Shown: positions 6,002 to 33,178, counted from the first letter of the stretch. The stretch is DNA of 33,178 bases from an uncultured Bacteroidota bacterium (GCA_903889265.1 CAISWS010000425.1:1-33178); one strand, 5' to 3'. A program made the numbers and translations. The notes: generated by a model not told the origin, from the sequence alone.

Positions 6002-7111
<1,110 letters not shown>

Positions 7112-7121
7112 TTCCAAATTA

Positions 7122-7754
7122 CTAACGGGTATTTATGGCATGCATAAATTCTTCCCGGGATATAAACCTGGCACCCATGCTTTCTAGATGCGGGGTGTGA
7201 ACCTGGCAATCTATCAGATTAAATTTACCTGCCTGACAAAGGGCAATAAGAGCGAGTTTGGAAGTATTAGGCGCTTTGCTGAACATGCTTTCGCCGCAGA
7301 AAACTTTGTTTACTATTACGCCATACAGGCCGCCAACAAGTTCATCTCCGTTCCGTACCTCAACTGATTGGGCTATATTTTTTTGATGCAACCGGACATA
7401 GGCTTGTATCATATCATCGTGAATCCAGGTACCAAGCTGGCCTTTGCGTGATATGGTGGAGCAATTTTTCATCACCCCTTCAAAATCAGTATTCCACTTT
7501 ACCTGGTACTTGTTTGTTTTTATCAACTGTTTCATGCTGTGCGAAACGCGGACTTCATTGGGCATTAAAACAAACCGCTGATGCGGGCTATACCACAAAA
7601 TTTGCTCGCCTTTGGCATACCAGGGGAAGATGCCGTTTTGATAAGCCAGCTTTAAACGCTCTACCGATAAATCACCACCAATGGCCAGCAGGCCGTCTTC
7701 ATCGGCCAATGCGGGGTTGGGGAAAATAAGTTTGGAGCTGAGTTGGAAAAACAT
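7122..7754 (-). CDS. aat: Leucyl/phenylalanyl-tRNA--protein transferase
   Basis: FPNPALADEDGLLAIGGDLSVERLKLAYQNGIFPWY, ILWYSPHQRFVL, SVEVRNGDELVGGLYGV, FCGESMFSKAPNTSKLAL. Confidence 0.95.
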   Translation of the reverse strand: MFFQLSSKLIFPNPALADEDGLLAIGGDLSVERLKLAYQNGIFPWYAKGEQILWYSPHQRFVLMPNEVRVSHSMKQLIKTNKYQVKWNTDFEGVMKNCSTISRKGQLGTWIHDDMIQAYVRLHQKNIAQSVEVRNGDELVGGLYGVIVNKVFCGESMFSKAPNTSKLALIALCQAGKFNLIDCQVHTPHLESMGARFISREEFMHAINTR

Positions 7755-7921
7755 GCGGCGAAGTTGGGGAAACGCACTAATTATTTTGCAAATAATTTAC
7801 AATCAACTCGATACTCAAAGTTACGGGTTCTCTTTCGTAGAAAATTAATGGGTATGATAAACTGCTTCAATAGTTGGTTCCGTGAGGGTGCCACATAAAT
7901 TTTTATTTTTGCACCCGCTTT

Positions 7922-8563
7922 ATGAGTAAGCCCGATAAAAACATTTTCCCGATACACGATAAGTTGCTGGATAGAAACAGCAAGGAGCAGTTGCTGAAGC
8001 AGCACAGCAAAGTGCTATGGTTTACGGGCTTATCGGGCTCGGGTAAAAGCACCATTGCTAATGGGGTGGAGAATGAATTGCATCATTTAGGGCATTTAAC
8101 TATGCTACTGGATGGCGACAATGTAAGAGCGGGAATTAATAATAACCTGGGCTTTTCGGAAGAGGACCGAAAAGAAAATATCAGGCGCATTGCAGAAGTA
8201 GCCAAATTATTGATGGAAGGCGGGGTAATAACCATTTGCTGTTTTGTAAGCCCAAGCGAGGAGTTGAGAGAGATGGCCCGTGGTATAATAGGAAAGGATG
8301 ATTTTATTGAAATTTATGTAAACACCCCGGTTGAGGTTTGTGAGCAGCGCGATGTAAAGGGCCTTTATGCCAAAGCGAGGAGAGGGGAGATTAAAGATTT
8401 TACCGGTGTAAATGCGCCGTTTGAAGAACCCGTAAATGCGGATATAGTTTTGCAGTCGGGCAATATGAGTATATATGACTGCGTTAAGCTTGTTCTGGAA
8501 AATGTGATACCGAAGATTGGATATGTGAAAACGGATAAGAAGGACGATTTTTTTGTCATTTAA
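7922..8563 (+). CDS. cysC: Adenylyl-sulfate kinase
   Basis: WFTGLSGSGKSTIANGVE (P-loop), LLDGDNVRAGINNNLGFSEEDRKENIRRIAEVAKL, DVKGLYAKARRGEIKDFTGV. Confidence 0.95.
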   Translation: MSKPDKNIFPIHDKLLDRNSKEQLLKQHSKVLWFTGLSGSGKSTIANGVENELHHLGHLTMLLDGDNVRAGINNNLGFSEEDRKENIRRIAEVAKLLMEGGVITICCFVSPSEELREMARGIIGKDDFIEIYVNTPVEVCEQRDVKGLYAKARRGEIKDFTGVNAPFEEPVNADIVLQSGNMSIYDCVKLVLENVIPKIGYVKTDKKDDFFVI

Positions 8564-8586
8564 CCTACTAAATATATAGACTGATA

Positions 8587-9489
8587 ATGTCTTATACATT
8601 GAATCATTTAAAAACGCTGGAGTCGGAATCAATTTTCATTTTACGTGAAGTGGCAGCGCAGTTTCAAAACCCCGCTATTTTGTTTAGTGGAGGCAAGGAT
8701 TCAATACTTGTTACCTACCTTGCAAAAAAGGCATTTTGCCCTGCAGCCATACCGTTTCCGTTAGTGCATATTGATACCGGGCATAACTTTGCTGAAACGC
8801 TTCAATACCGGGATAAGCTGGTAGAGAAACTGGATGCCAAACTGATTGTAGGCTCAGTGCAGGATAGTATTGACCATGGGAGAGTAGCAGAGGAGAAGGG
8901 CTACAATGCTTCGCGCATAAGGCTGCAAACAACTACGCTGCTGGATATTATTGAAAAGTACAAATTTGACGCCTGCATAGGTGGTGCACGGCGAGATGAG
9001 GAGAAGGCAAGGGCCAAAGAACGTTTCTTTTCGCACCGCGATGAGTTTGGCCAGTGGGACCCTAAGAACCAGCGCCCTGAGCTTTGGAATTTGTTTAATG
9101 GCAGAATGCATCAGGGAGAGAACTTCAGGGTATTTCCGATATCTAACTGGACAGAACTGGACGTTTGGCAATACCTGGCGATGGAGGGCATTGATATGCC
9201 TTCGCTATATTTTTCGCATAAACGCAGGGTGTTTTTCAGAGACGGGGCCTGGCTGGCAGAAAGCCCGAATATACCCATGCGGCCTACGGAAGTTGTTGAA
9301 GAAAAGGTGGTGCGTTTCAGAACCATAGGTGATATTACTTCAACCGGTGCCTCGCTCTCGACGGCCTCAACATTAAATGATATTATACAGGAAGTAGCTG
9401 CCACACGTGTAACTGAACGAGGTGGACGAGCGGACGACAAGAGAAGTGAAACAAGTATGGAGGACCGGAAGAAGGAAGGATATTTTTAG
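8587..9489 (+). CDS. cysD: Sulfate adenylyltransferase subunit 2
   Basis: LNHLKTLESESIFILREVAAQFQNPAILFSGGKDSI, GGARRDEEKARAKERFFS, FPISNWTELDVWQYL, ends MEDRKKEGYF. Confidence 0.95.
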   Translation: MSYTLNHLKTLESESIFILREVAAQFQNPAILFSGGKDSILVTYLAKKAFCPAAIPFPLVHIDTGHNFAETLQYRDKLVEKLDAKLIVGSVQDSIDHGRVAEEKGYNASRIRLQTTTLLDIIEKYKFDACIGGARRDEEKARAKERFFSHRDEFGQWDPKNQRPELWNLFNGRMHQGENFRVFPISNWTELDVWQYLAMEGIDMPSLYFSHKRRVFFRDGAWLAESPNIPMRPTEVVEEKVVRFRTIGDITSTGASLSTASTLNDIIQEVAATRVTERGGRADDKRSETSMEDRKKEGYF

Positions 9490-9517
9490 CCCCTCCCATC
9501 CCTGAAGGGGATGCTAA
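9487..9517. repeat. Short palindrome spanning the cysD stop codon in the cysD-cysN gap
   Basis: TAGCCCCTcccatccctgaAGGGGatGCTA: arms CCCCT/AGGGG nested in TAGC/GCTA. Confidence 0.4.
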
Positions 9518-9536
9518 AACCAAATGCAAAATAAAA

Positions 9537-10856
9537 ATGATAGATTTAGAATCAGTAACAGATACCGAGCAAGTGAAAGAGGAAAAATTTGATGCAAATA
9601 GTTACCTGAATATGGAGTTGCTGCGGTTTACTACCGCTGGCAGTGTTGATGATGGTAAAAGCACGCTTATTGGCAGGTTATTATACGATTCGAAGTCTAT
9701 TTTCGAAGATCAGTACGAGTCTATAAGGGCTACGTCAGAAAAGCATGGTGACCAATATGTAAATCTTGCATTGCTTACTGATGGATTAAAAGCCGAACGC
9801 GAGCAAGGTATTACTATTGATGTAGCCTACAGGTATTTCTCTACCCCTAAACGCAAATTTATTATTGCTGATACACCGGGGCATATTCAGTATACACGCA
9901 ATATGGTGACCGGTGCCTCAACTGCTAACCTGGCCATTATTCTTATTGATGCGCGTAAAGGGGTTATTGAACAAACCCGGAGGCATTCAATCATTGCCTC
10001 ACTATTGGGGATTCCGCACATAGCTGTTTGTATCAACAAAATGGATATGGTTGATTACAGCCAGGAAGTGTTTGATAAAATTGTTGAAGACTACCGCATT
10101 TTTGCAACTCGTTTAAAAACAAAAGATATTCACTTTATACCGGTTTCGGCTTTGCTCGGCGACAACATCGTTAACCGGTCAGAGCATATGAAATGGTATG
10201 AGGGCGTTACTCTGCTTTATCTGCTTGAAACCATTCACATTGCCAGCGACATTAACCATATTGACCTCCGGTTCCCGGTGCAATATGTTATCCGGCCATT
10301 TTCAGATAAGTTTCATGATTACCGGGGTTATGCCGGCAGGCTTGCAAGCGGGGTGATAAGGCCGGGTGATAAAATAACAGTACTGCCTTCGGGTTTTACT
10401 TCAAAAGTTAAACAGGTTGAATTGGATGGAATGATTTTGGAAGAGGCCTTTGCGCCCATGTCGGTAACCGTATTATTGGAAGATGATATTGATATATCCA
10501 GAGGAGATATGCTTGTGCGCGAAAATAATTTGCCCCGCCAAAGCCAGGATATTGAAGCCATGGTATGCTGGATGAGCGATAAGCCTTTGCAGATTAATGG
10601 CAAGTACGCGCTTAAACACACCACCAAAGATGTGAGGGCTGTGATTAAAGAGATAAAATATAAGCTGGATATAAACTCACTGCACCGGATTACTGAAAAT
10701 CCATCTATTGGAATGAATGATATAGGCCGGATATCTTTGCGCACCACCAAGCCGCTTTGCTGTGATGCCTACACTAAAAACAGGGATACAGGAAGTTTTA
10801 TTTTGATTGATGAGGCTACCAATATTACGGTGGGCGCTTGTATGGTTATTGATTAA
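9537..10856 (+). CDS. cysN: Sulfate adenylyltransferase subunit 1 (GTPase)
   Basis: LLRFTTAGSVDDGKSTLIGRLLYDSK, AEREQGITIDVAYRYF, IADTPGHIQYTRNMVTGAS, INKMDMVDYS. Confidence 0.95.
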   Translation: MIDLESVTDTEQVKEEKFDANSYLNMELLRFTTAGSVDDGKSTLIGRLLYDSKSIFEDQYESIRATSEKHGDQYVNLALLTDGLKAEREQGITIDVAYRYFSTPKRKFIIADTPGHIQYTRNMVTGASTANLAIILIDARKGVIEQTRRHSIIASLLGIPHIAVCINKMDMVDYSQEVFDKIVEDYRIFATRLKTKDIHFIPVSALLGDNIVNRSEHMKWYEGVTLLYLLETIHIASDINHIDLRFPVQYVIRPFSDKFHDYRGYAGRLASGVIRPGDKITVLPSGFTSKVKQVELDGMILEEAFAPMSVTVLLEDDIDISRGDMLVRENNLPRQSQDIEAMVCWMSDKPLQINGKYALKHTTKDVRAVIKEIKYKLDINSLHRITENPSIGMNDIGRISLRTTKPLCCDAYTKNRDTGSFILIDEATNITVGACMVID

Positions 10857-29603: not shown

Positions 29604-31349
29604 ATGAATAATTTTAAAGAAAAAGCAAACTTCCTCTGGTCAATTGCAGACTTGCTGCGCGGCCATTATAAACAAGCCGATTACGGCAAAGTAATTTTAC
29701 CGCTTACTGTATTACGCAGGCTCGATTTTGTATTGGAACCCACCAAGAAAAAAGTGTTAGAAGCCTACGACCAGCACAAAACCAAAAAGCCTGAAGTACT
29801 CGACCCCATTTTAAACAACATCGCAAAGGCCAAATTTCATAACCACAGCAAATTTGATTTTTACGAACTGGCCAAAGACCATAACCACGTAGCCGCCAAC
29901 CTGCGTAATTACATCAACGGCTTTTCGGGCAGTGCAAAAGAAATTATCGATTATTTCAGCTTTGAAGACCAGATAAAAAAACTGGACGAATACGACCTGC
30001 TTTATCTCGTAATTAAAAAATTCTCAGAAGCAGGCGACATGTTTAAGGGTGTAACCACCATAGAAATGGGCTACATCTTTGAAGAACTCATCCGCAAGTT
30101 TGCTGAAATAAGTAACGAAACTGCCGGGGAGCACTTTACCCCGCGCGAAGTAATACGCCTGATGGTAAATTTGCTGTTTGTAAATGATAAGGACATACTG
30201 CGTAAAAAAGGCATTGTAAAAACCCTGTATGACCCTGCCTGCGGCACCGGTGGTATGTTAAGTGAAGCAGAACTTTACTTACAGGAACTAAACCCCGATG
30301 CCAAGCTTGAAGTTTTTGGACAAGAACTAAATCCTGAATCGTATGCCATCTGCAAAAGCGATATGCTGATTAAGGGGCAAAACCCGGCCAACATTAAATT
30401 TGGCAACTCGTTTACCCAGGACGGCTTGGAAGATGAAACCTTTGATTACATGCTGAGCAACCCACCTTTTGGTGTGGAATGGAAAAAAGCTGAAAAGCAG
30501 ATTAAAGACGAATACGCCACCAAAGGTTTTGCCGGCAGGTTTGGCGCGGGCTTACCTGCTATAAGCGATGGCTCATTTCTGTTTTTGCAGCACATGATAA
30601 GCAAAATGAAACGCAGCGCAGGCGGCAGTCGCATTGCCATTGTATTTAATGGTAGCCCCCTGTTTAGCGGCGGAGCAGGCAGCGGCACCAGCGATATACG
30701 TAAATGGATTATTGAAAACGATATGCTGGAAGCCATTATAGGCCTGCCTGACCAGTTGTTTTACAACACCGGCATATCAACCTATATATGGATTGTTACC
30801 GACCGTAAAACAAAAGACCGCAAGGGCAAGGTACAGCTAATAAACGCCACCGGTGCCGACAAAGACGATAAGGATAACCCCTTTTACAGCAAAATGCTGC
30901 GCAGCCTTGGTAACAAGCGTAAAGAAATACACGAAAAGGCAATACAACACATAACCGAAATATATGGGGCCAATAAACCCGGCCCTTATTGCAAAATTTT
31001 TGATAACGACGATTTTGGCTACAGCCGCATTACTGTTGAAAGACCCAAAAGAGATGCAAAAGGAAAAATTGAAACTGATAAAAAAGGCAATCCCATACCC
31101 AATGCCGACCTGCGCGATTTTGAAAACGTACCTTTAAAAGAAGATATAGCAGCCTACTTTAAAAAGGAAGTATTGCCGCACCTGCCCGATGCAAAAATTG
31201 ATGAAGGCAAAACCAAAATTGGATACGAAATAAACTTTACCAAATACTTTTATCAATATAAACCCCTGCGCAGTTTACAGGATATACGAAAGGACATTTT
31301 GGCTTTGGAGGAAGAAACTGAAAATATGATAGGGCACGCATTAAAATAA
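29604..31349 (+). CDS. hsdM: Type I restriction-modification DNA methyltransferase subunit M
   Basis: FLWSIADLLRGHYKQADYGKVILPLTVLRRLD, TAGEHFTPREVIRLMVNLL, DPACGTGGML (motif I), MLSNPPFGVEW (motif IV). Start at the internal ATG. Confidence 0.95.
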   Translation: MNNFKEKANFLWSIADLLRGHYKQADYGKVILPLTVLRRLDFVLEPTKKKVLEAYDQHKTKKPEVLDPILNNIAKAKFHNHSKFDFYELAKDHNHVAANLRNYINGFSGSAKEIIDYFSFEDQIKKLDEYDLLYLVIKKFSEAGDMFKGVTTIEMGYIFEELIRKFAEISNETAGEHFTPREVIRLMVNLLFVNDKDILRKKGIVKTLYDPACGTGGMLSEAELYLQELNPDAKLEVFGQELNPESYAICKSDMLIKGQNPANIKFGNSFTQDGLEDETFDYMLSNPPFGVEWKKAEKQIKDEYATKGFAGRFGAGLPAISDGSFLFLQHMISKMKRSAGGSRIAIVFNGSPLFSGGAGSGTSDIRKWIIENDMLEAIIGLPDQLFYNTGISTYIWIVTDRKTKDRKGKVQLINATGADKDDKDNPFYSKMLRSLGNKRKEIHEKAIQHITEIYGANKPGPYCKIFDNDDFGYSRITVERPKRDAKGKIETDKKGNPIPNADLRDFENVPLKEDIAAYFKKEVLPHLPDAKIDEGKTKIGYEINFTKYFYQYKPLRSLQDIRKDILALEEETENMIGHALK

Positions 31350-31434
31350 AAAAACCCGGATTCATCACCAGCATAAAAACTGGGAGAGGAACTACCGGGA
31401 CTGCCTGATGCAAATATACTAAAAATAACGCGAA

Positions 31435-32082
31435 ATGGATAGACAATATATGCAAAGCGTTTTTTCCCCGGAAAGAATGCATAAATATTTCGGCAAACAC
31501 ACTCCTGATGAGGCAAAAGCTATAAAGCATTATCAACTAAATATTTCGGCCTCAGAAAGCTTTTACCCAAGCCTCAGTATTTTTGAAATAGCGCTGAGAA
31601 ATAGCCTCAACCGCAAGTTATGCGATAAATTTAATACCCAGGATTGGTATCTGGCACTTGCAACACAACCAGGATTAAAAGACCTGAACCGCGAAATTAC
31701 TATGGCGCAAAAACATATAACAAAGCGCCACGAAGTTATTAGCGGTGCAAAAGTGGTAGCAGAGCTTACGCTTGGGTTTTGGGTTAGGATTTTAAATGCA
31801 GAATACGAACGCATTTTATGGAAGGATTTAAGAAAAGCATTTCCAAATATGTCTAAAACTGACCGCCAAAGGCATAACGTTTCTGCACCTATTAATAAAA
31901 TCCGGGATTTCCGTAACCGCGTTTTCCATCATGAGCCCATTTTGTGGAACATCAGCAAGGTGGAGCAAATACACGCTGATATATATACCGTGTGTGGATG
32001 GATTAATAAAGACTTACCCGATTTCATAAAAACAGTTGACCGTTTTCCTGAAACTATTTCAAGCATTAAAACGGAACTTTAA
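31435..32082 (+). CDS. Abi-like protein (Abi_2/AbiD-F-like) with HEPN-type RNase motif
   Basis: YFGKHTPDEAKAIKHYQLNISASESFYPSLSIFEIALRNSLNRKL, and RDFRNRVFHHEPI containing an Rx4H (RNRVFH) HEPN signature. Confidence 0.8.
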   Translation: MDRQYMQSVFSPERMHKYFGKHTPDEAKAIKHYQLNISASESFYPSLSIFEIALRNSLNRKLCDKFNTQDWYLALATQPGLKDLNREITMAQKHITKRHEVISGAKVVAELTLGFWVRILNAEYERILWKDLRKAFPNMSKTDRQRHNVSAPINKIRDFRNRVFHHEPILWNISKVEQIHADIYTVCGWINKDLPDFIKTVDRFPETISSIKTEL

Positions 32083-32084
32083 TA

Positions 32085-33125
32085 ATGAAATCCTACCCCA
32101 AATATAAACCCACCGGCATTGATTGGATTGGTGATATTCCAAGTCATTGGGAAGTGAAGAAGTTGAAGTATATCACTTACATGAAAGCGCGTGTAGGTTG
32201 GCATGGTTTAAAGGCTGATGAGTTTTCCCTCGATGAGAATTTGCCTTATTGCGTTACAGGAACGGATTTAATTAAGGGAAAAGTAAATTGGTCAAGTTGT
32301 TACAGAATCAGTGAAGAGAGGTATGAAGAAGACCCCTACATTAAGCTAAAAGAAAACGACCTTTTGGTAACTAAGGACGGTACTATAGGGAAGGTTGCAA
32401 TTGTTGAAGGACTAAATGGAAAGGCAATTTTAAATAGTGGTGTTTTCGTAATGAGGCCGCTAGAAAATAAGTATGATACCAGATTCATGTTTTGGCTGAT
32501 TGAATCAACTGTTTTTTCCGAATTTGTCGGCCTTACTTCTCGTGGCTCAACAATTATTCACCTATACCAGGACAACTTTCTCAATTGGTCTATAACACTA
32601 CCAAATCTTGAAGAACAAACCGCCATCGCCAATTACCTCGATGAAAAAACCACCCAAATAGATACACTGATTGTCAACAAACAAAAGCTGATTGAGCTGC
32701 TTAAAGAAGAGCGCACCGCCATTATTAACCACGCAGTTACAAAAGGCATAAACCCAAATGCAAAATTAAAACCAAGCGGGGTGGATTGGTTAGGAGATGT
32801 GCCGGAAAATTGGGGCCTAAAAAAATTGAAGTATGTAGCAAAATTAAAAAGCGGGGATACTATTACTTCTGATTCAATTAGACCAGAAGGCCATTTTAAG
32901 GTTTTCGGGGGAAATGGATTACGAGGCTTTACTGCAACATATACCCACCACGGGGATTATGTACTTATTGGTCGTCAGGGTGCACTGTGCGGAAATATTA
33001 ACTACGCAGCAGGTAAATTCTTTGCATCCGAACATGCAATTGTGGTTACAATAATTGATGGAAGTAATTTTGTATGGCTAGGCGAATTACTTAGAATAAT
33101 GGTTACTGTTCAGAAGCTAATATAA
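32085..33125 (+). CDS. hsdS: Type I restriction specificity subunit S, apparently truncated in its second target-recognition half
   Basis: Two homologous repeat starts: KYKPTGIDWIGDIPSHWEVKKLKYI and KLKPSGVDWLGDVPENWGLKKLKYV. Central EEQTAIANYLDEKTTQIDTLIVNKQKLIELLKEERTAIINHAVTKG. Confidence 0.88.
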   Translation: MKSYPKYKPTGIDWIGDIPSHWEVKKLKYITYMKARVGWHGLKADEFSLDENLPYCVTGTDLIKGKVNWSSCYRISEERYEEDPYIKLKENDLLVTKDGTIGKVAIVEGLNGKAILNSGVFVMRPLENKYDTRFMFWLIESTVFSEFVGLTSRGSTIIHLYQDNFLNWSITLPNLEEQTAIANYLDEKTTQIDTLIVNKQKLIELLKEERTAIINHAVTKGINPNAKLKPSGVDWLGDVPENWGLKKLKYVAKLKSGDTITSDSIRPEGHFKVFGGNGLRGFTATYTHHGDYVLIGRQGALCGNINYAAGKFFASEHAIVVTIIDGSNFVWLGELLRIMVTVQKLI

Positions 33126-33178
33126 GAAAAAAATGAACACGTAGAAAAAAACGGAAAATTAACTTATCAGTCTTATTA

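Follow-up and report, generated by a model that had tools for sequence, protein, structure and literature searches.

Introduction

AbiF is an RNA-antitoxin system in which a toxic HEPN dimer carries a bound RNA, as described in C. difficile (AbiFCd-RCd22, PMC12373285), and a review reports an AbiF RNA-antitoxin system, PbAbiF, in Prevotellaceae (PMC12737573). PD-T4-5, a plasmid-borne AbiD/F-like protein, provides abortive infection against T4 (Vassallo et al. 2022, PMC9519451), and the portions of that paper available to us describe no RNA partner for it. Abi2/AbiF/AbiD HEPN genes embedded in restriction-modification (R-M) operons have been reported as well, with coupling to R-M proposed (Anantharaman 2013, PMC3710099); the available portions of that source likewise describe no RNA partner for these genes. 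Both the R-M linkage of such genes and the existence of AbiF-RNA pairs are already known. PrrC and RloC are anticodon nucleases, HEPN RNases carrying an Rx4-6H motif, and PrrC resides within a type I R-M locus. In type III toxin-antitoxin systems (ToxIN, AbiQ, CptIN) an RNA antitoxin neutralises a protein RNase.

Here we describe a locus from an uncultured Bacteroidota bacterium, contained in a contig of 33,178 nt (GCA_903889265.1, CAISWS010000425.1) that is referred to below as the window. Like the genes described in PMC3710099, its abi gene belongs to the HEPN Abi superfamily and lies within an R-M operon.

Results

A small Abi-like HEPN gene lies within an interrupted type I R-M operon

An earlier note on this DNA had placed a 215-aa Abi-like gene between hsdM and hsdS on one strand, with its stop codon 2 nt before the hsdS ATG. 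Open reading frame (ORF) calls, Pfam and PADLOC bear out this arrangement, the abi stop codon occupying 32080-32082. The features of the region are as follows.

29604..31349, plus strand: hsdM, encoding the 581-aa modification subunit of a type I R-M system (Pfam N6_Mtase 1.6e-59, HsdM_N 3.3e-26; PADLOC MTase_I 857 bits)
31346..31404, minus strand: structured small RNA, candidate RNA antitoxin (found in homologues; covariation; G-U versus A-C; covariance model match of 80 bits)
31346..31364, minus strand: intrinsic-terminator-like end of the small RNA, a CCGGG arm followed by UUUUUUU (an A-run before CCCGG on the plus strand)
31411..31418, minus strand: -7 promoter box of the small RNA, TATATTTG, of the Bacteroidota type TAnnTTTG (same box in other loci)
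31435..32082, plus strand: abi, Abi_2/AbiF-like HEPN protein, 215 aa, candidate RNase toxin with Rx4H at R160/H165 (motif, AlphaFold, Foldseek)
32085..33101, plus strand: hsdS, type I specificity subunit with its 3' end lost (Methylase_S 6e-24; frame continues into a genome-wide repeat)
33101..33178 (start approximate): terminus of an IS66-type insertion sequence by which hsdS is interrupted (repeat on other contigs)

hsdM is intact in the window. The hsdS that the earlier note had recognised is present but incomplete: the ORF call extends over 32085-33125 (plus strand), its last codons consist of repeat sequence, and an IS66-type repeat replaces its 3' end. The repeat at 33101-33178 is 94-100% identical to sequence on four other contigs of the same genome, on one of which it lies beside a 481-aa IS66-like transposase. 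These matches indicate that hsdS is probably disrupted by an IS66-type element in this genome, or in part of the population, and the contig ends here because of this repeat. A different contig of the genome (C20, 3352-6351; L180) encodes an intact 1000-aa HsdR that is 60% identical to the HsdR following hsdS in locus L038 and is likely the restriction subunit of the window's type I system.

The Abi protein contains the motif R157-D-F-R160-N-R-V-F-H165-H-E-P, in which R160, N161, R162, H165 and E167 are invariant among 51 homologues, so that the Rx4H motif pointed out earlier is indeed conserved. The Pfam search suggested in the earlier note gave an Abi_2 match (E 1.7e-4) that fell just under the gathering cut-off (22.4 vs 25.6 bits). 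The nearest PADLOC family was PD-T4-5 (E 5.8e-17), matched over positions 24-235 of a 309-aa profile, and it is through this profile that the likeness to PD-T4-5 is known here. Structure prediction for 31435-32082 with AlphaFold gave an all-helical model (pLDDT 95.9, for the monomer without RNA) with an AbiF-like HEPN fold. The best Foldseek match in the PDB, 8vz6_A, is the PbAbiF dimer bound to its ncRNA and was recovered with a probability of 0.97, a TM score of 0.52 and 12% identity, but an E-value of 0.49; runner-up matches had probabilities of 0.11 or less. Sequence searches of the PDB with the Abi protein (phmmer and a profile search) returned no match. The 8vz6_A structure is the only credible PDB match for the model, and on that account the protein appears to be AbiF-like, distantly. 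It forms a single domain without an NTPase domain, consistent with the HEPN-type Abi protein lacking such a domain that had been proposed.

Small HEPN 'Abi family' proteins are common on plasmids (552 records matched) and often carry annotations as hypothetical or as solo genes.

The hsdM-abi gap contains a conserved structured RNA on the minus strand

The 85 nt between hsdM and abi hold a conserved minus-strand RNA that was absent from the earlier note. It has an outer stem, CCCGG/CCGGG, enclosing the core UCCUCUC...GGUGAUGA, and its 3' U-tract overlaps the hsdM stop codon. The gap folded far more stably than shuffled sequences on both strands (z -3.4 on plus, -2.9 on minus). Across 51 distinct sequences, 99.3% of cells in the 15-pair structure were paired and 7 of the 15 pairs had changes on both sides, with a covariation of 0.219, whereas shuffles gave 0.083 and slid controls no more than 0.035. 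Read on the minus strand, the alignment contains 23 G-U cells and no A-C cells, whereas on the plus strand those 23 become mismatches, and the RNA was assigned to the minus strand for this reason. We also considered a plus-strand reading of the hairpin, which is ruled out by the same asymmetry and by the placement of promoter and terminator.

TAnnTTTG is the Bacteroidota -7 promoter element. In 75 of 78 loci this box stands at the same place, with a distance of exactly 7 nt to the following GCnGUCCC in most of them, and a TTTG -33 box at a spacing of 19-20 nt from it is found in 48 of 74 loci, the window's own being non-canonical. At the other end, the A-run before CCCGG on the plus strand is present in all Bacteroidota loci, which on the minus strand places six or seven U directly after the final arm. 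The RNA would be expected to start near GCAGUCCC on the minus strand and to be about 60-75 nt long.

The RNA is the constant partner of abi

A scan of GTDB genomes yielded the 80 closest homologue loci, encoding proteins 47-65% identical to that of the window. The RNA was found in all 79 that could be assessed (77 by pattern, L092 and L106 by covariance model), the remaining one, L107, being excluded because it is cut off at a contig end. In these 77 loci, the element spans about 50 nt and is situated 73-93 nt upstream of the abi ATG. No intact abi without the RNA occurred among the 79, and in five loci abi is broken by stop codons while the RNA is kept intact, which fits a toxin/antitoxin model. 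When 93 neighbour proteins were scanned with PADLOC and Pfam, none emerged as a constant partner; the constant partner of abi is the adjacent structured minus-strand RNA. Conservation is far higher in the RNA than in the protein (mean distances 0.18 and 0.42), and the two sets of distances correlate (Mantel r 0.27, p 0.0006).

The pairing extends to more distant relatives. Covariance model R1 recovered the RNA beside relatives carried by plasmids of Escherichia, Pseudomonas, Pantoea, Enterobacter, Aeromonas and Xanthomonas, where it again occupies the minus strand and precedes abi by 45-110 nt. The proteins of these gammaproteobacterial plasmid relatives are 34-39% identical, and in their RNAs the outer stem is swapped whole, CCCGG/CCGGG becoming CCUAG/CUAGG, with UCCUCUC and GRUGAYGA kept. 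Model R2 added P. syringae, Picosynechococcus and others. Among relatives on viral contigs, which had not been used in building the covariance model, the RNA was present in 7 of 8, at the same place and on the same strand (E 6e-11 to 3e-4). Across 132 kb of sequence surrounding hsdM relatives, the model matched at no locus other than the window's own. The RNA fits no family of Rfam 15 in gathering or permissive scans, and RF03085, the Rfam abiF family, did not match by cmscan at E up to 10. In E. coli complete genomes, the homologue from an E. coli plasmid had no relative at the DNA level.

Several further observations concern the range of the RNA. Model R2 had no match at three PD-T4-5-like plasmid genes of Klebsiella and Escherichia (L142, L146 and L147; 335-343 aa), which share a different, conserved GC-rich element upstream of abi that the model does not match. 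In four loci from Alphaproteobacteria and Rhodococcus (L140, L143, L144 and L148), a hairpin of the form CCCCGG...CUCU...AUG...CCGGGG occupies the same place and strand before abi. These hairpins have diverged beyond the reach of the model but probably belong to the same RNA class. One MAG labelled Lachnospiraceae (L104) carries the RNA with a Bacteroidota-type promoter, reflecting either horizontal transfer or a binning error. Orphan copies without abi also exist, in L132, L115 and L116, and given these the RNA may have another role in places. The L132 copy (7023-7081, minus strand, 60 bits) lies directly before an hsdM (7214-8686) in a type I locus and would be either the remnant of a lost toxin or a solitary antitoxin; within a single genus (g64), L115, L116 and L122-L126 hold RNA copies without a recognisable abi, in repeat-rich surroundings.

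In L106 (4920-4978), the whole RNA unit, from promoter to terminator, is flipped, so that it lies on the same strand as abi. Because the unit is inverted together with its own promoter and terminator, it is predicted to be an autonomous sRNA that is neither obligatorily antisense nor a 5'-UTR element. This bears on an arrangement resembling type I toxin-antitoxin systems, in which the minus-strand RNA would pair with the 5' leader of the abi mRNA and block translation. In nearly all loci, the divergent orientation does give full complementarity between the RNA and the abi leader, and the RNA could act partly through such base-pairing. However, in L106 it cannot be antisense to abi, unpaired letters of the core are conserved across phyla although pairing would not need them, and the AbiF precedent is one of protein binding. 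We therefore regard translational block by antisense pairing as improbable as the main mode of action.

Insertion into the R-M operon has occurred more than once

The order hsdM-abi-hsdS was found in only 2 of the 80 homologue loci, L032 and L038, and an hsdM-like gene within 5 kb in 4 of them; the other loci have mixed housekeeping genes as neighbours. In the tree, the window groups with the solo loci L028 and L029, and L032 and L038 are placed elsewhere. A single origin of the embedded arrangement was rejected (AU p=0.0035). From this placement and the AU result, insertion between hsdM and hsdS happened at least twice, independently. In genome G177 (L151), which has an hsdM 81-83% identical to that of the window, hsdS directly follows hsdM and the RNA is absent; this locus is an empty site. 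Other hsdM relatives have DUF262-like, GxxExxY-like, AAA-like and OLD-like genes in the gap, as judged by eye from the sequences, and because unrelated genes fill it in this way, the gap is a cargo slot. The hsdM-hsdS slots of L151-L179 hold many different genes and offer a source of candidate defence genes.

Two additional contacts with R-M genes were noted. In L036, a different hsdM-like gene precedes the RNA and an abi that contains a stop, and in L133 abi is directly upstream of hsdM, the two overlapping in the ORF call (8747-9562 and 7200-8795), with AAA and DUF4276-like genes before hsdS. A plus-strand -7 box before the element is absent in the three embedded loci and present in 36 of 76 others, which hints that an embedded abi may rely on hsdM transcription. 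Given the mixed housekeeping neighbours elsewhere and the few contacts with R-M, the module is presumably self-contained and has on occasion inserted into a type I locus. Its association with R-M probably exceeds chance, yet is dispensable for function.

The earlier note had proposed a PrrC-like backup RNase regulated through HsdM or HsdS, and it had named association of the homologues with type I R-M as a test. In such a scheme, the HsdM/HsdS complex would keep the HEPN protein inactive and a phage block of the restriction enzyme would release it. The shared operon and strand, the short distance to hsdS, the same arrangement in L032 and L038, the hsdM neighbours in L036 and L133, and the precedent of PrrC itself (PMC3710099) all speak for such control. 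On the other side, the homologues are mostly unlinked: 76 of 80 have no hsdM-like gene within 5 kb, yet all that could be assessed keep the RNA. Moreover, the arrangement arose through at least two insertions, the slot is empty in L151 and filled with unrelated cargo in other relatives, the Abi protein lacks the N-terminal NTPase domain of PrrC and RloC, and in the window hsdS is broken whereas abi and the RNA are intact. Unlike PrrC and RloC, whose type I linkage is regular, this family has an occasional R-M linkage and a constant RNA partner. Regulation through HsdM or HsdS is thus not supported, and we consider it quite unlikely; an abortive-infection RNase is still plausible by analogy, without the parallel to R-M-controlled PrrC.

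Discussion

Based on the data presented above, it is probable that abi and its divergent RNA constitute a portable, AbiF-like HEPN RNase toxin/RNA-antitoxin module for abortive infection, residing in an R-M cargo slot. The systems nearest to it are the AbiF-abiF RNA pairs (RF03085; AbiFCd-RCd22, PMC12373285; PbAbiF-AbiFr, 8vz6), with which it has in common an Abi_2-type HEPN protein, the Rx4H motif and a constant adjacent structured RNA, PbAbiF also being the closest PDB fold. The two RNAs resemble each other in their outer G+C stem and in a CUCU ... AUG core, which is an observation rather than a test of homology; in L136, for example, the Rfam abiF motif lies in sense orientation directly before AbiF, with CCUCUC and AUG within the outer stem. 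In contrast, the window protein is only 215 aa and about 12% identical to AbiF, RF03085 does not recognise its RNA, and this RNA is divergent, with its own promoter and terminator, whereas the abiF RNAs of L136 and RCd22 are in sense, just upstream. With type III systems the module would share the expected logic of an RNA neutralising an RNase. It differs from them in that the HEPN protein does not have the ToxN fold and the RNA is a single copy instead of tandem repeats, and divergent instead of co-transcribed.

By analogy with AbiF, we infer expression of the RNA, its binding to the protein, toxicity, a trigger and an antiphage effect. Given the AbiF precedent, the module most likely acts through a toxic RNase that the RNA restrains: a structured antitoxin of about 60 nt would bind the Abi dimer and keep the Rx4H active site off. 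Phage takeover would deplete this short-lived RNA, be it through shut-off of host transcription, loss of DNA or decay of RNA, and the drop would free the HEPN RNase, which would cut RNA and stop growth, resulting in abortive infection. In the window, abi would probably be read from the hsdM promoter, with hsdS following two bases on, and the small RNA would still be transcribed from a separate promoter on the other strand.

AbiF-like HEPN proteins are the proposed ancestors of Cas13 (PMC12165695, PMC12737573), and in keeping with that origin the RNA might be a guide or activator that aims the HEPN protein at particular RNAs rather than an antitoxin. Since the whole RNA is conserved, it has no variable spacer-like stretch, and broken toxins beside intact RNAs are a better fit for an antitoxin; a guide role is very unlikely. 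Least probable of all is a cis-acting abi mRNA leader, serving autoregulation or attenuation with no separate RNA, as the position of the element before abi and the folding of the plus strand might suggest, given the G-U over A-C asymmetry, the minus-strand promoter and terminator and the inverted unit of L106.

Setting aside the primary PbAbiF paper, which might overlap in part, we found this RNA family, its divergent placement and its pairing with PD-T4-5-like proteins described neither in Rfam 15 nor in the open literature searched. More tentatively, the toxin/RNA-antitoxin module may represent a class of HEPN abortive-infection systems that crosses phyla under a divergent, protein-binding RNA antitoxin. 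Such an RNA could be the missing antitoxin of PD-T4-5-like single-gene systems and would have the same CUCU...AUG core as abiF RNA. Once landed in a type I R-M operon, the toxin would be supplied from the hsdM promoter and so be tied to restriction, with the antitoxin still under a promoter of its own.

These results imply that one large branch of small HEPN Abi proteins always comes with its own RNA, which provides a testable switch, and they would broaden the AbiF-RNA principle underlying Cas13's origin by adding a second RNA family, whose gene orientation is the opposite. They also serve as a warning that position inside an R-M operon is a poor guide to functional coupling: in the window, abi and its RNA most likely form a portable module for phage defence that came to lie in the operon, and not a part of the restriction system.
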